This document shows positions 29,164 through 56,959 of a stretch of 64,000 bases of DNA, piece after piece. The DNA comes from Endobacter medicaginis (GTDB lineage Bacteria; Pseudomonadota; Alphaproteobacteria; Acetobacterales; Acetobacteraceae), in NCBI RefSeq assembly GCF_014192375.1, contig NZ_JACHXV010000001.1:62001-126000 (forward strand), read 5' to 3'. Position numbers and translations under genes: made by a program. The notes under the pieces were generated by a model that worked only from the letters and a program-made list of their open reading frames with translations, had not been told where the DNA came from and searched no databases. Within the stretch, counting starts at the first letter, position 1, and the number at the start of each line of letters is the position of its first letter.

Positions 29164-30153
29164 TTATCCATTATTTACAACGTGTTGAGAGACGTCCTTT
29201 GGCCACCGCCTGTGGAGCCAGAGCCACGATCCCGGGGATTGTCGAATCCAGGCCTCGATCTGGTCGTTGACCGCCTGGGTCAGCCAGGCGATCGCGGCGG
29301 CGGTATCGCGACCCTCGCCCAGGGTGTCCGGCGGCAGGCTCAGCACCTCGCTGACATGCAGCTGCAGCCGCGCCGGCCCCAGCCGCTCCACCCAGCCGCC
29401 GATCACCGGTGCATCGTAGCGCAGTGCCATCGCCGCCAGCGCCGGCGCCGTCATCGCCCGGTGGCCGAACAGTCGCGCCTCGATGCCGTCGTTCATCTTC
29501 TGGTCGACCAGCATGCCCAGGCGGTGGCCGCGCCGCAGATGCGCCAGCGCCCCGCGCGCGCCGGTCGCGCCTTTGGCGAACGGCCGCGCGCCGGCCGAGG
29601 GATCGGCGGCCAGCACCGGGCCCAGCGCGGCACGACGCAGGCCGAGGATCACCTCGTCGGCAGCGCCGATGCTGGCGGCGCGATAGATCGAGGTAAAGCC
29701 CGCGCCGCACAGCCCGGCGGCGCGCGGCAGGGCTTCCCAGTTGCCGAGATGGCCGGAGAACAGCAGCACCGGTCCGGGTGGCAGCGCCTCCAGCCGGGCG
29801 CGGTCGGTGGACTCGATGATCAGCCCGGGTCCGGCGGCGGTGTTGACCTCCAGCCCGGCCAGATGCGGAAACTCGCCGATCGTGCGGCCGAGATTGTCCC
29901 ACACCCCGCGCAGCACCGCCCGCCGTCCCGCATCGTTGAGCTCGGGCAGGGCGAGGCGCAGATTGGCATCGCCCACCCTGTTGACCGGCAGCCACGGCCC
30001 GACGGTGCGCGTCAGCCCGCCCGCCAGGTTCGAGGCCCGTACCGGCCCGGCGAGGCGCAGCAGCGCCACCGCGCCGCGCAGCGCCGCGCCCACCGCCATG
30101 GTCGTCGCCCGGGTGCGCCATGCGGCGATCCGGCCCTGCCTGCCGTGCGTCAT
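29164..30153 (-). CDS. LpxL/HtrB-family lipid A acyltransferase
   Basis: 329 residues. The N-terminal region has one weak membrane segment, then the acyltransferase motif GHLGNWEALPRA (HxxxxE) and LVDQKMNDGIEARLFG, with a C-terminal WLHRRWP typical of lipid A late acyltransferases. It adds a secondary acyl chain to Kdo-lipid A. The ATG at 30153 overlaps the lpxK stop (ATGA). It is the last gene of the operon DUF374-waaA-lpxK-this gene. Which acyl donor and position are used cannot be told. Confidence 0.9.
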   Translation of the reverse strand: MTHGRQGRIAAWRTRATTMAVGAALRGAVALLRLAGPVRASNLAGGLTRTVGPWLPVNRVGDANLRLALPELNDAGRRAVLRGVWDNLGRTIGEFPHLAGLEVNTAAGPGLIIESTDRARLEALPPGPVLLFSGHLGNWEALPRAAGLCGAGFTSIYRAASIGAADEVILGLRRAALGPVLAADPSAGARPFAKGATGARGALAHLRRGHRLGMLVDQKMNDGIEARLFGHRAMTAPALAAMALRYDAPVIGGWVERLGPARLQLHVSEVLSLPPDTLGEGRDTAAAIAWLTQAVNDQIEAWIRQSPGSWLWLHRRWPKDVSQHVVNNG

Positions 30154-31142
30154 CGCGGCACGCCGTCCAGCCAGGTGTCGAGCAGGGCCTCGACCTCCGT
30201 CTCGTCCGACCATGCCAGACGCAGCCCGACCACCCGCGGCGCGGGCGACTGACTGCCCCAGCGGGCGAGATCCTTCGGTGTGGTCACCGCCACCGCGTCG
30301 AGGCGCTTGGCCTCGTCCAGCAGCCGGGCGCGCAGGGCGGCGGTATAGGGCTGATGGTCGCCCAGCGCCCGCGTTCCTGCGAGGTCGAGCCCGGCGCTGC
30401 GCAGCGCGTCGAAGAACTTCTCCGGCCGGCCGATCCCGGCGAAGGCGAACAGGCGCATCCCGCGCAGGGCGTCGATCCCGGCCGGGTCCTGCACCGGCGT
30501 CGCCGACAGCTCGACCCGTCCGGTCGGCGGATCGAGACGCCCTTCGGCTCCGTCGCCGATGCGTACCACGGCCGCGCAGCGGGCAGCGGCGGCGGCCGGC
30601 GTCTCGCGCAGCGGCCCCAGCGGCAGCAGCCGGCCATTGCCGAACCCGGCCCCGGCATCCACCACCAGCAGGCCGAGATGCTTGTGCAGACCGGGGTTCT
30701 GCAACCCGTCATCCATCACCAGCGCGCCGGCGCCGGCCGCCACCGCCTGTCGCGCCGAGGCGACGCGGTCGCCCCCGATCCAGACCGGGGCGTGGCGGGC
30801 CAGCAGCAGCGCCTCGTCGCCGACCATCGCTGCCGTGTCCGCCGGACCCACGCGATGCGGCCCGCGCAGCCGGCCGCCATAGCCGCGCATCAGCACATGC
30901 GCCTCGACACCACGCGCGCGCAGGCGCTGCACCAGATCGATCACCACCGTGGTCTTGCCGCTGCCGCCGACGGTGACGTTGCCCACGCACAGCACCGGCA
31001 CGCCAGGATCGACCCCGGCCTGACGCGCGCGCCGCGCGGCCACCCGTCCGACCCCCCAGGCCACTGGCCCGAGCGCGAGCCGCAGTGGCCAGGGGGGGCG
31101 TCGTTTTGCCGCCCAGAACGCGGGTGCGCGCCAGCCCGCCAT
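30150..31142 (-). CDS. lpxK: Tetraacyldisaccharide 4'-kinase
   Basis: 330 residues. P-loop CVGNVTVGGSGKTTVVIDLVQRL (Walker A GGSGKTT) close to the N-terminal membrane-associated segment, then MRGYGGRLRGPHRV, DDGLQNPGLHKHLGLLVVDA and GPLRET. LpxK phosphorylates the 4' position of the lipid A disaccharide. The ATG at 31142 overlaps the waaA TGA by one base (TGATG). The longer frame upstream is only the shadow of waaA. Confidence 0.95.
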   Translation of the reverse strand: MAGWRAPAFWAAKRRPPWPLRLALGPVAWGVGRVAARRARQAGVDPGVPVLCVGNVTVGGSGKTTVVIDLVQRLRARGVEAHVLMRGYGGRLRGPHRVGPADTAAMVGDEALLLARHAPVWIGGDRVASARQAVAAGAGALVMDDGLQNPGLHKHLGLLVVDAGAGFGNGRLLPLGPLRETPAAAAARCAAVVRIGDGAEGRLDPPTGRVELSATPVQDPAGIDALRGMRLFAFAGIGRPEKFFDALRSAGLDLAGTRALGDHQPYTAALRARLLDEAKRLDAVAVTTPKDLARWGSQSPAPRVVGLRLAWSDETEVEALLDTWLDGVPR

Positions 31143-32518
31143 CACGCCGGAGTCCGCACCGGGACGGCCTGCGCGAGCAGGGCTTCCGCCACCCGTTCCG
31201 GCAGGTCGCGCCCGGTGCTGAAGATCGCCGCGGCGGCCTGCGCGCTGCGCATCCTCGCCATCGGGTCGGCCAGCATCGCCGCCACCCAGTCGGCGAGTGC
31301 TGCCTCGTCGGCCACCACCGTCAGCGCGCCTGCCGCCTCGAGGATGCGCACCGCGTCGTTGAAATTGCCGGTCAGCCTGCCGGTCGCCACCGCCGCCTCG
31401 CAGCGCGCCGGCTCGTAGGGGTTGTGCCCACCCCCCTGGCCGAGCAGCGAGTGGCCGACGAACACCACCCGCGCCGCCCGGTAGAGCATACCCAGCTCTC
31501 CCAGCGTGTCCCACAGATAGAGCCCGGCTCGTTCCGGCAGTGCCTCGCGCGCGGAGCGACGCCGCACGCCGCCGAGCTCGGCGGCGATCGCGGCGCCGCG
31601 ATCGGGGTGGCGCGGCGCGATCAGCGTCAGCAGCCCCGGATGATGCGGGGCGAGGCGGGCATGCACCCGGGCGATCGCCGCCTCCTCGCCGGGATGGGTC
31701 GAGGCAGCCAGCCACACCGGCCGCTTGCCGATCTCGGCGCGCAGTGCTGCGAGGGCGGCCGGATCGGCGGGCAGGGCGGGCGCGGCCTGCTTGAGGTCGC
31801 CGACCATCACCGCCTCCGGGCCGCCGAGGGCCGCGATGCGTGCCGAATCCTCCGCGCTGCGGGCCAGGACCGCGGTGATCAGCCCGAACGGCGTGCCCCC
31901 CAGCAGCCGCGCAGCGCTCTGCCAGCGCGCCCCGCTGCGTGCCGACAGCCGCGCATTGATCATCAGCGCCGGGATGCTGCGCCGGGCGAGTGCCGCGAGC
32001 GTATTCGGCCAGATCTCGCTGTCGACGAAGCCCGCGACGTCGGGGCGCCAGCGATCGAGCAGCCGGGCGACGGCGCGCGGGGTGTCGTGCGGGGCGAAGC
32101 GATGGCTCAGCCGCCCGCCGAGCGGCAGCGGCGCGCGCGCCTCGAGGATCGCCGCCGAGCTCAGCGTGCCGGTGGTGACCAGCACCGCAACGTCCTCGCG
32201 CGACAGCAGCCGTTCGATCACCGGCAGCACCGAGACCGTCTCGCCGACGCTTGCCGCATGCAGCCAGACGCGGCGCGCGGCCCTGTGCCAGGTCTCGGGC
32301 GGCGGCGTGCCGAGGCCACGGCGTTCGTCCAGCCGATCCGGATCTTCCTTGCCGATCCGTACCCGCCACGCCAGCAGCGCTCGCAGCGCCGGCGGCGCCA
32401 GCGAGGCGGCGACCGCCCAGGCGGCGGCGACGGCGCGCCCGCGCAGGGTGCTGCGGGGTGTTGCGAACGCGCGTTTTCCGGCCTGCGGATCGCGCATTTC
32501 CTGTGTCTCGATGCTCAT
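31142..32518 (-). CDS. waaA: 3-deoxy-D-manno-octulosonic acid (Kdo) transferase
   Basis: 458 residues. The GT30 signatures are VWLHAASVGETVSVLPVI with the catalytic Glu, SEIWPNTLAALARRSIPALMINARLS, GDLKQAAPALP, IAPRHPDR and VGHSLLGQGGGHNPYEPA. A short hydrophobic N-terminal region anchors it at the inner membrane. It attaches Kdo to lipid IVA. The start used is the first Met; a later Met (MRDPQAG) is possible. Its stop overlaps the lpxK start. Confidence 0.95.
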   Translation of the reverse strand: MSIETQEMRDPQAGKRAFATPRSTLRGRAVAAAWAVAASLAPPALRALLAWRVRIGKEDPDRLDERRGLGTPPPETWHRAARRVWLHAASVGETVSVLPVIERLLSREDVAVLVTTGTLSSAAILEARAPLPLGGRLSHRFAPHDTPRAVARLLDRWRPDVAGFVDSEIWPNTLAALARRSIPALMINARLSARSGARWQSAARLLGGTPFGLITAVLARSAEDSARIAALGGPEAVMVGDLKQAAPALPADPAALAALRAEIGKRPVWLAASTHPGEEAAIARVHARLAPHHPGLLTLIAPRHPDRGAAIAAELGGVRRRSAREALPERAGLYLWDTLGELGMLYRAARVVFVGHSLLGQGGGHNPYEPARCEAAVATGRLTGNFNDAVRILEAAGALTVVADEAALADWVAAMLADPMARMRSAQAAAAIFSTGRDLPERVAEALLAQAVPVRTPA

Positions 32519-32596
32519 GGCCGCTCGCGGCCACGCCGCTTCGAGGCGCGAAAACGCACGGTTTTCGGCTCGGACTCCACAAGTTTGTGGCCCCCG

Positions 32597-33289
32597 CTAG
32601 TCATCGACACGGCCGAGCGCCTCCGCCGCGATGCGCGCGACGCCGTCGAGTGCGGCCCGCACGATCTCGTCGCCGCCGGCGTGCCGGTCGGCGCCGATGT
32701 CGAACAGCGGGCCATAGACCAGCACGCCGCGCGCGAACGGCAGCGGCACGCGCATGCGGTCCCAGCTGCGCAGACGCAGGGCCGGGCGCGTCGCGCCGGC
32801 CATCGGCAGCAGGCTCAGCGAGGTCCGGGCGGCCAGCATCGCCGCACCCGCCGCCGGCACCCGCCGCGGCCCGCGCGGTCCGTCGGGGGTCAGGCCGAGC
32901 ACCGCGCCCTGGTCACGCAGCGCCAGCAGCCGCCGCAGTGCCGTGGCACCGCCCTTCGGCCTCGTGCCGCCATCGGCACGCACGCGGTCCGACGAACCGG
33001 CGATCACCTCCAGCCCCCAGCGCGCGAACAGCCGCGCCAGCGCCTGGCCATCGCGATGGCGGCTGACCATGACATGCAGTCGGCGCGGATTGCCGGCCCG
33101 GATCGCCTCACGCCACAGCGCCGGCCCGAACGGCAGGAACTCGTGCCACAGTACCGCCACCGCCTGGAGATCGCCGTCGATCACGGCCTGCGCCGAGGGA
33201 TCGACGACCAGCCGCCAGCGTACGGTGCGCAGGGTGAGGTCGAGATAGGCACCGATCAGGGCGGTGACGAGACGGGTGGAGAAAGCCAT
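32597..33289 (-). CDS. DUF374 lysophospholipid acyltransferase-like protein
   Basis: 230 residues. AVLWHEFLPFGPAL carries the acyltransferase-like His; MVSRHRDGQALARLFARWGLEVIAGSSDRV and LGLTPDGPRGPRRV are the conserved DUF374 blocks. DUF374 proteins sit with waaA and lpxK in many alphaproteobacterial genomes and are assumed to be acyltransferases of LPS. The start ATG at 33289 begins MAFSTRL; the upstream in-frame extension is not conserved. It ends 78 bases before waaA. Confidence 0.88.
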   Translation of the reverse strand: MAFSTRLVTALIGAYLDLTLRTVRWRLVVDPSAQAVIDGDLQAVAVLWHEFLPFGPALWREAIRAGNPRRLHVMVSRHRDGQALARLFARWGLEVIAGSSDRVRADGGTRPKGGATALRRLLALRDQGAVLGLTPDGPRGPRRVPAAGAAMLAARTSLSLLPMAGATRPALRLRSWDRMRVPLPFARGVLVYGPLFDIGADRHAGGDEIVRAALDGVARIAAEALGRVDD

Positions 33290-33323
33290 CGGATCGGTGG
33301 CGGATGATGGTACCGCCCCCGGC

Positions 33324-34247
33324 TCAGGCGGCTTGCCGATGAAGGTCCGGGACGGGCGGCGCCTCGCCGCCGGTGCCGTGGGTGGCGAGTTGTGCGGTGC
33401 GCACGCCGGGTCGGGCGGTGTCCCAGGCGCGCAGGCCACGCAGCGCGAGATCGGCCATCGACGGCAGCAGCCGCGGCTGCATCAGGTCGGGGTCGAACTG
33501 CGCCATGCGGCGGGCATTCTCCCGGTAGCAGTCGGTGACGAAGCCGCGGAAGCTGAACCCGTCGAGGAACAGGTTGGCCTGGGTGACGGCGAAGTCGCGC
33601 CCGTCATTGGGCTCCTGCCCGCGCCGTACCATGCCCAGCAGCCGCCCGGCGGCGCGCCCATAGAAGCGCGCCGACTTCGCCGCCCGGCGCACCGCGCCGA
33701 GGCCCCGCTGCTTCTCGCGCCAGGCCATGTAATTGATGAAGAACACGATGTGACGGGTCTCCTCGTGCATCAGCACGTCGAAGATCTCGAACATCTTCTC
33801 AGGCAGGAACTTGCTTTCGCGCGCCGTCTTGAAGGCGCCGAAACCGAGGAACGCGTCGAGGCACTCGCCGAAGCCGAAATCGATGAACGCCGTTTCCAGA
33901 TCGGGCGGAAATGCCTCCAGCGGCTGCTCGGTGGCATCCAGCCCGTAACGGTCGATCATCACCCGGATCAGCTTGGCATGGCGGGTTTCCTCCAGCCCCT
34001 GCAGCGCCACCGCCTCGCGTACGATCGGGTCGGTGATGGTGGGGGTGAAGGCCTCGACGATCGCACCCGCGCGGCGCTCGGTGTGGAACACCTCCTGCCA
34101 GAACGGCACGCCGCGCAGCCGGGCGAGTTCCTCGTCGGTCAGCTCGGGCCAGGGCAGGGTGTCAGGATCGTAGAGTTCGTGGCTGTCGATGAACTGACGG
34201 CAGAACAGCGCCTTGTGGGCGTCCGAGCCGGCTGTGATGGTCATCAT
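33324..34247 (-). CDS. Ferritin-like diiron protein, unknown function
   Basis: 307 residues, four-helix diiron layout read directly from the sequence: E57 (FHTERRAG), E87-T-R-H90, E128 (FGFGECLDAF), and E163-T-R-H166. These give the E, ExxH, E, ExxH ligand set of ferritin-like diiron oxygenases. The rest is helical with a basic segment. No substrate family is recognised. The start ATG-ATG at 34247/34244 has AGGGGAG upstream. It is divergent from the heme-oxygenase-like gene at 34547, with an AT-rich region between. It could hydroxylate or desaturate a substrate (inference). Confidence 0.8.
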   Translation of the reverse strand: MMTITAGSDAHKALFCRQFIDSHELYDPDTLPWPELTDEELARLRGVPFWQEVFHTERRAGAIVEAFTPTITDPIVREAVALQGLEETRHAKLIRVMIDRYGLDATEQPLEAFPPDLETAFIDFGFGECLDAFLGFGAFKTARESKFLPEKMFEIFDVLMHEETRHIVFFINYMAWREKQRGLGAVRRAAKSARFYGRAAGRLLGMVRRGQEPNDGRDFAVTQANLFLDGFSFRGFVTDCYRENARRMAQFDPDLMQPRLLPSMADLALRGLRAWDTARPGVRTAQLATHGTGGEAPPVPDLHRQAA

Positions 34248-34546
34248 CCACTCCCCTGGTCCAGTCCTGCGGATCTTGTAGCGCAGGAGGCCTGAGGCGC
34301 GAAGCCGGCAGCGGCGGCGCGCGAAAACCCACCTGCGATCTCTCCTCGGCATTGTATTATGCAAGTATTCATAGGTGGTTCTAAGTTGTTCCAACTTTCG
34401 CAATAAATGTGCGGTTGAAACTAAGTATACTGTAAGAAATAATTTTCTTGGTGTTTGCTAGCTTCCGCTGGGATGGTGTCGACCCAGGTCATCCTGAAGC
34501 ATCGATTTCGGATGATACTGACGTCAACACAACAGGTGAGGTCGCG
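34248..34546. promoter_or_regulatory. AT-rich divergent promoter region between two diiron-enzyme genes
   Basis: 299 bases without a gene, with a markedly AT-rich core at 34350-34450 unlike its surroundings. On the minus strand a CATAAT box (34356-34361) sits 17 bases from TTAGAA (34379-34384), a plausible promoter for the ferritin-like gene. A palindrome AAGTTG-TTC-CAACTT (34383-34397) abuts that -35 and could be an operator. TATACT (34426-34431) is a possible -10 toward the other gene, without a clear -35. Confidence 0.4.
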
Positions 34547-35281
34547 ATGTATGCTCTTCTCTTTGCTGAACCTGTCGTCGACCGCGACGCGTTGCGCGTC
34601 CATGCGCGCGAGGAGGTGTTCGGCTCGCCGCTGATCCGCGCCTGTGCGGCGGGCGATGTCACGGCGGTGCGCGCCCTGCTGGCCGGCTTCTGGCCGTTCG
34701 TGAAGGCCTTCGAGCGTGCCATCGACCTTCGCGTCGGCCGCCTGCCCACCCGTCCGCTGATCGAGCGCTTCGGCCAGAGTCGGGTGCGGGCCTTCTTCGG
34801 CGAGGCCCGCGAGGCGGTGCGCGAGATGAAGGAGGAGGAAGGCTCGCACATGGCGCTGTGGCGCAAGAGTGCCGACGAGCTCGGTCTCGATCTCGACGCC
34901 GTGCCGGTCCTGCCGGGCGTCGAGGCGCTGCTGGCCAGCGCCGAGTCCGACGATCCGACCGAGTTCTTCTGCTGGCTGGCCGGCACCGAATACATCACCG
35001 AGGAGCTGTCGGCCTATCTGTGCCACGCGCCGGCCTTCGTGCGGCTGTTCGCCAAGCCGCGCTGGCCCTGGGGGGTGGCGCATCTGATGGACGAGCACGA
35101 TGGACCGTCGCATCTCGAGATCGACGAGGATCTGGCCCGCGCCTATCACCCGTCGAACGACAACGCGATCGTCGGCGCCACCCTGTTCGCGCACATCCGC
35201 CGCTGCCAGGAGCTGTTCGGCCTGGCCGCGCGCAATGTCGGCGAGGTGCTCAGCCCCGGCTTGGTGCCGCTCGCGGCCTGA
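34547..35281 (+). CDS. Heme-oxygenase-like diiron oxidase (HDO/iron-containing redox enzyme family), putative
   Basis: 244 residues, all-helical. The ligand pattern seen is E56 in FVKAFERAID, E98-G-S-H101 (ExxH), E148/E152/E153 in TEYITEEL, and D185-G-P-S-H189 (DxxxH). This matches the EX2H...DX3H signature of heme-oxygenase-like diiron oxidases such as UndA or SznF (family knowledge). The start ATG at 34547 has AGGTGAGG upstream; an in-frame extension to 34448 lies in the promoter region. It is divergent from the ferritin-like diiron gene. The substrate is unknown. Confidence 0.75.
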   Translation: MYALLFAEPVVDRDALRVHAREEVFGSPLIRACAAGDVTAVRALLAGFWPFVKAFERAIDLRVGRLPTRPLIERFGQSRVRAFFGEAREAVREMKEEEGSHMALWRKSADELGLDLDAVPVLPGVEALLASAESDDPTEFFCWLAGTEYITEELSAYLCHAPAFVRLFAKPRWPWGVAHLMDEHDGPSHLEIDEDLARAYHPSNDNAIVGATLFAHIRRCQELFGLAARNVGEVLSPGLVPLAA

Positions 35282-35373
35282 GCACGATCCGCCCACGGAA
35301 CTGTTCCCGAAACCATGACCGCCGATCGTGGATTTCGTGGACAGTCCTCGCCGCGAAGTGGTAACCCCGGCAG

Positions 35374-37923
35374 ATGCTGAATCTCCGGCCTGGACGACGA
35401 TCTGGACGGACGTCCGGGGACCAGGCCGGGTCTGGCCGGGTGCGGTCCGACGATGGCGTCGGCGGTCCGGGATCCCTGAGCAAGCGGCACGCCACGCTGG
35501 TCGCCGGTGAGGCGACGCGCAACGCGCTCGCGCTGATGCCCTACTGTTTCATTACCAGCGCCCTCGTCGGCCCGATCATCTGCCTGGCCGGACCCGATTC
35601 CACGCATCGCCTCTATGGCCTGCTGCTCGCGCTGTGCAACGCCGCCGTCTGCATCCTTGGGCTGTGCTACGGGCTGTGGCGGTCGCGTCGCCGGGCGAAT
35701 GCCCGTGGCGCCTCCCTGGCCGACCTGCGGCGCGACCGCGCCGCCGTGGTCGCGTTCTCTGCCGCCTGCGGACTGGTGTGGTTCTGGATCCCGGTGCTGC
35801 TGTTTCCAGGCGCGGGCGCCAACGGGCGGCTGATGATTGCCTGCACCTGTGCCGGCATGATCTGCACGTCGCTCGCCCTGGTCGCCGTGCCGCTCGCGCA
35901 GCGCGCCCTGGCGCTGCCGCTGATCGCCGGCTTCTTCCTTGCCCTCGTCCTGACCGGCGAGCGTCAGCTTGTCGCGCTGGGCACGCTGCTGGTCATCTAC
36001 GGGTTGTTCGTGGTCGGCGCTGCCAAGCAGCTCGAGCGGCTGTTCCTGCGCTATCGCCGGCTCCGTTACGAGTTCCTCGACCAGACCAGCACCGTGCAGC
36101 TCCTGCTGGGCCATCCCGAGACCGGTCATGGCAGCCTGCTGTGGGAGACCGGTGCCGATGGCTGCCTGCTGAACGTGAACGAGAGGCTTGCCACGGCCCT
36201 CGGCGTCCGGCGCTCGCAGCTCGAGGGTCTGCCCCTCCCCACCCTGCTGATGGCCAGCGCGGAGGACGATGCCCACGCGCGCCTCACCGCCTGCCTCGCC
36301 GACCGCGTCGCCTTCCGCAACCTCGCCGGTCCGGTCGGCATCGCCGCCTCGCCCGATCGCTCCGTCAGCGGCATTACCGCCGGCAGCTTCCCCCCGACGC
36401 CCGGTCCGGAAGTGCCGCGCACCTGGTCGTTCACCGGCCGGCCGGTGTTCGAGGGGGGCGGCGAGTTCGCCGGCTTCCGCGGCGTCGCGACCGACATCAC
36501 CCAGACCCGCGAGGCTGCGCGGCGCGCCTCGCACCGCACCAGACACGATTCGCTGACCGGGCTGCTCAACCGCTACGGCTTCAGCGACCGGCTGCGCCTC
36601 GCCCTGCACGCGCTCGGTCGCAACGGCACCCCGTTCGCCCTGCTCATCGTCGATCTCGACGATTTCAGCGCCGTCAACGAGGCCTATGGCTACGGTACGG
36701 GCGACCGCATCCTCAAGACGATGGCGGCGCGGCTGCGCTCGGCCTGCGACGCGACGGCAATCCTCGCGCGCCATGGCGGCGACCAGTTCATGATCCTCGT
36801 CGAGGCGGCCGATGTCGACATCGTCGATGATCTCTCCCGCCGCCTGCTGGCTTCGCTGGCCGAGCCGGTCCTCGTCGGCGACGAGCGCGTCGTCTGCTCG
36901 GCCAGCATCGGCGTCTGCCTCGCACCGCTGGCCGGCGACACGATCGACTCCCTGCTCGAGGCGGCCGATCTCGCCCTTGCGCGTGCCCGGCGCGATGGCG
37001 GGCAGTCGGTGTGCTTCTACGAGCCGCGGCTGCGGCTGCTGGTCGAGGAACAGCGCAGCCTGCTGGCCGACCTGCGCCGTGCGGTGGCCCGGCACGCGTT
37101 CGGCGTCGAGTACCAGCCGATCGTCGACACCCAGACACTCGCCCTGCGCGGCTTCGAGGCGCTGCTGCGCTGGCACCGGCCCGGATACGGACCGGTGCCG
37201 CCCGACCGCTTCATCCGCGTCGCCGAGGAGGCCGGGCTGATCTGCGAGCTTGGTGCCTGGGTGCTCGAACAGGCCTGTCGGGAAGCGGTGTCGTGGCCGT
37301 CGCGGGTCAGGGTCGCGGTCAATGTCTCGGTCAGCCAGCTCGAATCCCCGGGTTTCGCCAGGCAGGTCGCCTCCATCCTGTCGAAGGTCGGTCTCGAGCC
37401 GTCACGCCTCGAGCTGGAGATCACCGAGAGCATCTTCATGGACGCCAACGCCTCCAGCTTCGGCGTGCTGGAGAGCCTGCGCGAGCTGGGCGTGGGCATC
37501 GCGCTCGACGATTTCGGTTGCGGCTTCTCCTCGCTCGGCTTTCTGCGTGGCTTCAGCTTCTCGAAGCTCAAGATGGACACCACGTTCGTGCGCGAGATGG
37601 GGATCGACCGGCGGGCGCATGCGGTGGTCAGCGCGATCGTCAATCTCGCCGCCGAACTCGGCGTCGCGGTGACCGCCGAGGGGGTGGAGACGCCGCAGCA
37701 ACTGTCGATCCTGCGCCAGATGGGCTGCACCCAGGCGCAGGGCTTCCTGTTCAGCCGGCCGATGCAGCCGGCGGCGATCCCGCCGCTGCTCGACCAGATC
37801 GGTGGCGAGATGGCGCTGTCGCCTGCCCCGGATGCGGTGTTGGGCGAGCCGCCCGAGACGCAGCCCGGGGCGCGGTTCAGCTTCGGCGCCGGTCGCGGCG
37901 ACGGCACCGACCCGGCCGGCTGA
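35374..37923 (+). CDS. Membrane-bound GGDEF-EAL protein with degenerate GGDEF
   Basis: 849 residues. The N-terminal ~220 residues hold about five membrane segments, then a PAS-like region (~250-370), a GGDEF domain with RHGGDQF near residue 470 (GGDQF instead of GGDEF) and an EAL domain. The EAL domain has FEALLRW, NVSVSQLE, LEITESIF, DDFGCGFSS, KLKMD and EGVET, all catalytic residues of a c-di-GMP phosphodiesterase. The protein probably degrades c-di-GMP, with the GGDEF acting as a regulatory domain (inference). The first ~40 residues are unconserved and a downstream start is possible. It is monocistronic. Confidence 0.88.
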   Translation: MLNLRPGRRSGRTSGDQAGSGRVRSDDGVGGPGSLSKRHATLVAGEATRNALALMPYCFITSALVGPIICLAGPDSTHRLYGLLLALCNAAVCILGLCYGLWRSRRRANARGASLADLRRDRAAVVAFSAACGLVWFWIPVLLFPGAGANGRLMIACTCAGMICTSLALVAVPLAQRALALPLIAGFFLALVLTGERQLVALGTLLVIYGLFVVGAAKQLERLFLRYRRLRYEFLDQTSTVQLLLGHPETGHGSLLWETGADGCLLNVNERLATALGVRRSQLEGLPLPTLLMASAEDDAHARLTACLADRVAFRNLAGPVGIAASPDRSVSGITAGSFPPTPGPEVPRTWSFTGRPVFEGGGEFAGFRGVATDITQTREAARRASHRTRHDSLTGLLNRYGFSDRLRLALHALGRNGTPFALLIVDLDDFSAVNEAYGYGTGDRILKTMAARLRSACDATAILARHGGDQFMILVEAADVDIVDDLSRRLLASLAEPVLVGDERVVCSASIGVCLAPLAGDTIDSLLEAADLALARARRDGGQSVCFYEPRLRLLVEEQRSLLADLRRAVARHAFGVEYQPIVDTQTLALRGFEALLRWHRPGYGPVPPDRFIRVAEEAGLICELGAWVLEQACREAVSWPSRVRVAVNVSVSQLESPGFARQVASILSKVGLEPSRLELEITESIFMDANASSFGVLESLRELGVGIALDDFGCGFSSLGFLRGFSFSKLKMDTTFVREMGIDRRAHAVVSAIVNLAAELGVAVTAEGVETPQQLSILRQMGCTQAQGFLFSRPMQPAAIPPLLDQIGGEMALSPAPDAVLGEPPETQPGARFSFGAGRGDGTDPAG

Positions 37924-56635: not shown

Positions 56636-56959
56636 CTCGGGCGAGCGCGTGCCTCTGGCCGCAGGCACGCGTTCCTCTGGCTCCTCCCTGTCTGTTCCCG
56701 AGCGATCACGATCTCGACGCTGAGCTTTCGCCTAACGGTCACTTGAAAGGCGTCTCATTATAAATACTTATGTCACAGTACGGGCGCTCGTCTCAAGTTA
56801 TGATGAGAGTTTCGTAAGGAGCAAAACAGATTTCGGATTGGACAATAGTACCACGAATTTTTCGACTTCGGCCAAAAAAACACTCGCTTTCCTGAACAAC
56901 ATCCTGCTAGATAATCAACAGGGGCAAGCAAAGGGCTTGCAAATATTTGGAGATCAATC
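56636..56959. promoter_or_regulatory. 324-base AT-rich region before the secreted peptide gene
   Basis: No confident gene. The section 56750-56950 is strongly AT-rich, unlike the flanks, with a TATAAATACTTATG stretch at 56758-56771 that could be a promoter. A 48-codon TTG-start frame (56838-56984) overlaps the peptide gene and is listed among the rejected items. Confidence 0.35.

Follow-up and report, generated by a model that had tools for sequence, protein, structure and literature searches.

A predicted heme-oxygenase-like metalloprotein is paired with a membrane PAS-GGDEF-EAL protein in Acetobacteraceae

The window analysed here is a stretch of 64,000 nucleotides from Endobacter medicaginis (contig NZ_JACHXV010000001.1, positions 62,001 to 126,000), a member of the Acetobacteraceae. 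Two genes in this window point away from each other, one encoding FER_A, a putative ferritin-like protein, and the other HOL, a predicted heme-oxygenase-like metalloprotein. The initial annotation of this DNA regarded them as a divergent pair and recognised no partner gene. HOL was found, however, to have a conserved partner directly downstream, GE, a protein with PAS, GGDEF and EAL domains. Together they form a two-gene module that joins a soluble heme-oxygenase-like metalloprotein to a membrane PAS-GGDEF-EAL protein, with the following features:

34330..34546, plus strand: leader of HOL, rich in AT and containing a promoter-like site (34415-34443)
34547..35281, plus strand: HOL (P0001), predicted heme-oxygenase-like metalloprotein of 244 amino acids, assigned from the open reading frame, alignments and a structure model; candidate metal ligands are E98 and H101 (helix 1), E148 (helix 2), and H184 and H189 (remodelled helix 3)
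35374..37923, plus strand: GE, membrane PAS-GGDEF-EAL protein of 849 amino acids, 92 bases past the HOL stop codon
35527..36024, plus strand: N-terminal hydrophobic (membrane) region of GE, with six peaks, judged from hydropathy only
36148..36504, plus strand: PAS domain of GE (PF13426, PAS_9; E 9.5e-5, below the Pfam cut-off)
36541..37002, plus strand: GGDEF domain of GE (Pfam)
37069..37761, plus strand: EAL domain of GE, of the cyclic di-GMP (c-di-GMP) phosphodiesterase type (Pfam and residues)

The association of the two genes was observed in all 28 distinct HOL loci, every one from Acetobacteraceae. These comprise 24 loci from a scan of named genomes, the window itself, and loci of genomes G021, G318 and G176; those of G109 and G302 were taken as duplicates among the 24. 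GE lies downstream of HOL in the same direction in 26 of the 28 loci. The genes are divergent in G176 and in a metagenome-assembled Acidiphilium genome (L075), where only a GE piece of 109 residues is visible at the contig edge. The scan used two peptide patterns, which can miss divergent members, and yielded its 24 loci among 501 candidate stretches, all in Acetobacteraceae genera. The 24 relatives share 57-77 % identity with HOL and belong to Acetobacter, Gluconobacter, Lichenicoccus and Acidiphilium; one strain that carries the HOL-GE pair is Gluconobacter oxydans NBRC 14819 (L061). When 385 genomes of the class were searched with a profile, HOL turned up in its own genome only, and no relatives were found on plasmids or viral contigs. 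Four of the ten matches in the genome search for HOL were dropped as chance (E 0.005-0.009, 28-39 % identity over about 65-90 residues), leaving six. Comparison of five loci (G021, G109, G318, G302 and G176) revealed no gene family common to all of them other than GE and HOL, within an incomplete list of open reading frames picked by codon composition that missed HOL itself in L038. Mean pairwise identity is 0.77 for HOL versus 0.60 for GE; the divergence of the two is correlated over 24 loci (r 0.98), and both follow species history. Two further genes, which we take to encode PepF and an ABC1 kinase, were considered as partners and rejected, as they adjoin HOL in three Acetobacter-type loci only (G318, L055, L058). 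The same two genes lie beside a ferritin-like paralogue in the genome of E. medicaginis and in no other locus compared.

Relatives of GE frequently have another partner. At E 1e-10, a profile of the membrane-PAS half of GE detected homologues in 65 of the 298 Acetobacteraceae genomes searched, the HOL-linked proteins (n=6) scoring 346-409 bits and the next one 223. Of the 58 GEs above 100 bits, 6 are encoded beside HOL and 40 within 3.5 kb of a gene for FeeM, an N-acyl amino acid synthase; no GE adjoins the two together, and 12 adjoin neither. The 12 partnerless loci showed no FeeM or HOL in the fetched flanks, some of which are cut by contig ends. Seen from the side of FeeM, 39 of 43 FeeM genes above 80 bits adjoin a GE, compared with 2 of 14 matches of 80 bits or less. 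FeeM beside a membrane PAS-GGDEF-EAL protein was seen in the Acetobacteraceae loci L175, L180-L186, L189 and others. All six FeeM proteins scanned matched PF21926 (E 6e-28 to 1.5e-34), and all ten examined carry the motif E-[IV]-x-R-L, which presumably includes the catalytic Glu. FeeM is described as an acyl-ACP-dependent acyltransferase resembling autoinducer synthases (PMC4897644). A common family of GE receptors is thus found with an either/or choice of partner, HOL or FeeM, at the level of the locus. Within a genome they do occur together: both kinds of pair are present in G176, and a single FeeM gene in E. medicaginis. This FeeM gene (L230:6143-6853) is 1.3 kb short of the end of contig C8, while contig C6 starts with a GE that lacks its N-terminus (L187:3-2297); these may be one pair split by assembly.

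Phylogenetic analysis of GE comprised 49 rows, including 13 HOL-linked proteins chosen for diversity and two outgroup rows with very long branches. Twelve of the 13 HOL-linked GEs cluster in one group of 16 (support 100/100), whose other four members are partnerless. Of the 18 FeeM-linked GEs, 17 fall in another group of 19 (93/95) that also includes two partnerless ones. The GE of G176 (L042) is placed near but outside the HOL group, and a long FeeM-linked branch (L191) outside the FeeM group. Since HOL-linked and FeeM-linked GEs largely group separately, the type of partner mostly tracks receptor lineage, with occasional loss of the partner.

The fold of HOL was modelled with AlphaFold2 from 25 sequences, giving a mean pLDDT of 89.8 and a pTM of 0.88. 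Structure comparison placed UndA on top (Z 18.2, 219 residues, root-mean-square deviation 3.5), followed by a TenA homologue (Z 17.8) and CADD (Z 16.5, 202 residues, deviation 3.2), while heme oxygenases scored lower (Z 13.7). These VIA-align Z scores were computed only on the top chains returned by Foldseek, whose own best match for the model had an E of only 2.3e-3. The heme-oxygenase-like fold proposed in the initial annotation is thereby supported, and HOL is confidently predicted to be a helical protein of this kind, nearest to UndA. By sequence neither HOL nor FER_A of the window gave a credible match in Pfam, NCBIfam or the PDB. Matches of 16 of 25 HOL members to the Pfam family PSD2 (best 3.1e-4) and of four to DUF4248 were taken as chance, the fold being clear.

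Conservation and profile alignment bear on the metal site. Residues E56, E97, E98, H101, E148, E152, E153, H184 and H189 are invariant in both a 6-row and a 25-row alignment (A1 and A3). Most of the residues named earlier as ligands are among them (E56, E98, H101, E148, E152, E153 and H189), the exception being D185, which varies between D, E and H. Profile-profile alignment with 27 PF14518 proteins, extracted from 30 returned loci with L120, L125 and L126 left out, gave a global E of 4.5e-5 but a probability of only 41 % (local E 1.1e-4, 56 %). This low-probability alignment puts E97/E98, H101, E148 and H189 of HOL on the usual ligand positions of heme-oxygenase-like dimetal oxidases (HDOs). 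The global version aligns the canonical third-helix Asp to the invariant G186, and the last His to H189. The motif H-x3-[D/E]-x2-H, present in 26 of the 27 PF14518 proteins, occurs in none of 29 distinct HOL sequences; 27 of these have H-x4-H-x4-H-x-E-x-DED instead, and all 29 have GPSH. Loss of two third-helix ligands goes with a mononuclear site in one HDO case, according to the review PMC13108848, and such a site has been described for FlcD. By this precedent HOL may differ from HDOs in its number of metals. The proposal that the locus encodes two different diiron enzymes holds as far as two distinct proteins with metal-ligand motifs are concerned, but the absence of the canonical motif makes a diiron site in HOL doubtful. 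HOL is therefore called HDO-like here and not an HDO, its diiron chemistry being putative.

On the side of GE, the EAL catalytic residues, as we assume them to be, are invariant in 12 of 12 chosen GEs. The GGDEF motif is degenerate in the window protein (GGDQF), and the pattern was unmatched in 7 of 27 GEs. EAL, GGDEF and PAS were the only domain matches in six proteins of the family that were scanned (the window, L048, L040, L038, L042 and L184).

The intergenic region between FER_A and HOL measures 299 bases (34248-34546), exactly as first annotated, and was thought to hold a shared AT-rich promoter. Its AT content is 0.48 against 0.31 for the window, a value reached by 0.6 % of equal stretches. 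It is the HOL side of this region, though, that is rich in AT. A single promoter-like site was detected in the gap, at 34415-34443 (0.1 expected by chance); it is oriented towards HOL, and none towards FER_A was found. The 200 bases upstream of HOL are richer in AT than their own locus by 0.22-0.33 in 25 of 25 loci. Whole HOL-side gaps exceed their locus by 0.25 on average (n=22, range 0.05-0.32), compared with 0.06 (sd 0.07) for 30 other promoter-type gaps; this automatic count found 22 of 25 HOL gaps and missed the window, L053 and L055. A control gap in the window (56669-56953) is nearly as AT-rich, at 0.23 above its surroundings. The leader showed no Rfam element at gathering score, and no terminator-like site was found in 34200-35420, which covers the gap between HOL and GE. 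The AT-rich leader is a feature of HOL itself.

FER_A is genuine, but its position next to HOL looks like chance, and it stands outside the HOL-GE module. It and the adjoining genes are:

33324..34247, minus strand: FER_A, putative ferritin-like protein of 307 amino acids as translated (start about 34247, stop 33324; open reading frame and alignment)
29164-33439, minus strand: row of four genes of lipid A or acyltransferase type (LpxL, LpxK, KdtA, DUF374), downstream of FER_A

A neighbour survey, named beforehand as the test that could overturn the divergent pair, showed no co-occurrence of the two genes in other HOL loci. No ferritin-like gene was found in the fetched flanks of the 24 loci of the named-genome scan, which spanned at most 6 kb and less where a contig ended. 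The 20-kb HOL loci of G021, G109, G318, G302 and G176 showed none either. FER_A and HOL are 0.88 Mb apart in G021 and on separate contigs in G109, while G318, G302 and G176 lack a FER_A orthologue and hold only a paralogue of 30-33 % identity. The view that HOL and FER_A act jointly in an oxidative tailoring pathway near the lipid A genes, as the first reading suggested, can draw on the divergent adjacency in this one genome, whereas the two genes are unlinked in the other genomes examined and the orthologue is missing in three of the five. In five of the seven genomes where FER_A was found (G021, G024, G007, G008 and G012; L043:9406-12028, L044, L045, L046 and L047), its tandem neighbours are instead a paralogue (FER_B) and a ClpP-like protease. 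The lipid A-type genes do lie next door, on the FER_A side, as stated earlier, but homologues of the four were absent from the flanks retrieved around HOL or FER_A in other genomes; a role of FER_A in lipid A tailoring was rejected on this ground, and joint action with HOL is improbable in the extreme. Co-transcription of FER_A with the lipid A-type row may occur in E. medicaginis.

The tandem arrangement is absent beside FER_A in E. medicaginis and G109. A gene that we take by eye to be recA adjoins it in three of the five genomes, and FER_A, FER_B and the ClpP-like protease possibly form a functional cluster of their own. E57, E86, E87, H90, E128, E162, E163 and H166 of FER_A are invariant in a 16-row alignment, which bears out all of the ligand residues proposed earlier (E57, E87xxH90, E128, E163xxH166). 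Seven of the 16 aligned relatives match Rubrerythrin in Pfam (best 4.1e-6) and six match AurF (best 6e-3), although the Pfam scan gave no ferritin-like match for the window protein itself. FER_A is likely ferritin-like by motif, because the ligand residues are invariant and several relatives match one of these families. A single-sequence structure model had a mean pLDDT of just 37.5 and did not resolve the fold. PDB sequence searches returned no credible ferritin-like or HDO match, only 5ux1, a MiaE-like hydroxylase, at E 0.23; a designed Kelch protein matched at 6e-7, over 22 residues only. Elsewhere in the E. medicaginis genome (G000:C6, L048:9684-13385) the genes for a second ferritin-like paralogue and a further PAS-GGDEF-EAL protein point away from each other, and ferritin-like and PAS-GGDEF-EAL genes lie ~1.5 kb apart in G022 (L090); none of the remaining ferritin-like loci in the comparison showed this arrangement. 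The ferritin-like family also occurs, at 58-66 % identity, in 13 records of a plasmid collection (NC_010625.1, NC_007974.2 and others) from Burkholderia, Paraburkholderia, Caballeronia and Cupriavidus; no annotated feature lies under the matches in these records.

HOL and GE are tentatively interpreted as an enzyme-plus-receptor signalling module in which a product of HOL is read by GE (probability roughly 0.4). This reading is suggested because a soluble enzyme-like protein adjoins a PAS-GGDEF-EAL protein, and because the signal-synthase-like FeeM is in the same place in relatives; HOL may make a signal since these relatives often carry a synthase of signal molecules there. HOL would oxidise a fatty-acid- or amino-acid-like metabolite to a small signal, which the membrane/PAS half of GE would sense. 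Sensing would change the phosphodiesterase activity of the EAL domain, so that c-di-GMP is lowered or raised. HOL would thus occupy the place that is held by an N-acyl amino acid synthase of the FeeM type in sister lineages. According to PMC13108848, UndA is a fatty acid decarboxylase, and the substrates of characterised HDOs are mostly fatty or amino acids. A synthase-receptor interaction with an effect on c-di-GMP has been described for RpfF and RpfR (PMC6361424), and the fatty-acid signal BDSF is reported to bind the PAS9 domain of the phosphodiesterase RpfR and to raise its activity (PMC8846402). The adjacency in the loci examined, the alternative partners within one receptor family, the predicted fold and the intact EAL residues are observations, whereas catalysis by HOL, recognition of its product by GE and the direction of the effect on c-di-GMP are inferences. 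A bolder version, held with more doubt, makes HOL with its rebuilt third helix the synthase of a new bacterial autoinducer, and a membrane PAS-GGDEF-EAL protein the receptor through which that autoinducer sets c-di-GMP.

Several observations weigh against this interpretation. HOL lacks the third-helix motif of canonical HDOs and could be non-catalytic, and its substrate, product and binding are all putative. Output need not always be phosphodiesterase activity, as the partner in G176 stops after GGDEF without an EAL domain. PAS matches are weak, being seen in four of the six GE-family proteins scanned while two show none. The high scores of HOL-linked GEs are partly built in, the profile having been made from them, and the threshold of 100 bits was chosen after the list was seen; none of the 27 weaker GE matches (below 100 bits) lies near FeeM or HOL, and neither gene was found near the eight best-scoring GE relatives fetched from outside the Acetobacteraceae. 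Four GEs in the HOL group (G159, G084, G241 and G093) have no HOL, so that GE can persist alone. The location of FeeM beside GE may itself reflect co-regulation rather than signalling.

In the main rival of the synthase reading, HOL would be a metalloprotein that senses O2, redox state or iron and that binds and switches GE directly, without a diffusible product. A small soluble protein with metal ligands encoded beside GE would suit this role, as would the altered third helix, and the higher identity of HOL than of GE together with their correlated divergence points the same way, though species history is shared. Partnership of H-NOX proteins with c-di-GMP enzymes provides a precedent (PMC8846402), but no H-NOX domain match was found in the window protein or in the 25 HOL sequences. 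The equivalent place in most relatives moreover holds FeeM, which belongs to an enzyme family and not to sensors, and the direct sensor is considered rather unlikely. Acetic acid bacteria are strict aerobes, and HOL and GE might alternatively be co-regulated with separate jobs, HOL being protective or metabolic, for instance limiting oxidative stress, in a c-di-GMP-controlled surface-attached state. DtpC of Acinetobacter, an HDO-like protein, has been linked to desiccation and oxidative stress (PMC13232832). Co-regulation would require neither strict pairing with one receptor subfamily at unrelated places in the genome nor the exchange with a signal-synthase-like gene, which makes separate jobs improbable. 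A heme-oxygenase fold beside a GGDEF-EAL protein also recalls BphO and BphP, with HOL as a genuine heme oxygenase that supplies biliverdin to a phytochrome-like partner. The six GE-family proteins scanned show no GAF or PHY domain, however, the 25 HOL sequences have no heme oxygenase match in Pfam, and UndA, the TenA homologue and CADD fit the model better (Z 16-18) than heme oxygenases do, leaving this explanation very remote.

HOL-GE resembles several known systems. As with RpfF/RpfR, a small enzyme-like protein neighbours a PAS-GGDEF-EAL protein, and the sub-threshold PAS match of the window GE is of the PAS_9 type. RpfF is a crotonase-fold enzyme and RpfR has no membrane region, unlike HOL with its predicted heme-oxygenase fold and GE with its membrane region. 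The FeeM pairs (40 of 58 Acetobacteraceae GE loci) share the receptor family and the logic of the neighbourhood, but HOL is metalloenzyme-like, and FeeM- and HOL-linked GEs are largely in separate clades. With UndA and CADD, HOL has in common the fold and, judged against PF14518 proteins, the positions of the helix-1 Glu/His and helix-2 Glu; it differs in being only ~10-17 % identical, in lacking H-x3-[D/E]-x2-H and in having a c-di-GMP protein instead of a pathway enzyme as partner. HOL is like H-NOX with its partner diguanylate cyclase or phosphodiesterase in being a stand-alone metal-ligand protein beside a c-di-GMP protein, and differs in its lack of an H-NOX domain match. N-acyl amino acid synthesis has also been tied to c-di-GMP in a further system, in which c-di-GMP was proposed to regulate the synthase, whereas the neighbour in Acetobacteraceae is of the c-di-GMP-degrading type. 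A text search, which leaves most subscription papers outside its scope, found no paper joining 'heme oxygenase-like' with GGDEF and EAL, nor one joining FeeM with GGDEF.

Gluconobacter and Acetobacter are acetic acid bacteria of industrial use, and with HOL-GE they offer a pair amenable to genetics, through which a heme-oxygenase-like metalloprotein may act on a c-di-GMP switch. The physiological function of N-acyl amino acids is still not clear, according to PMC4897644; the wider FeeM/PAS-GGDEF-EAL system would give these compounds a role.

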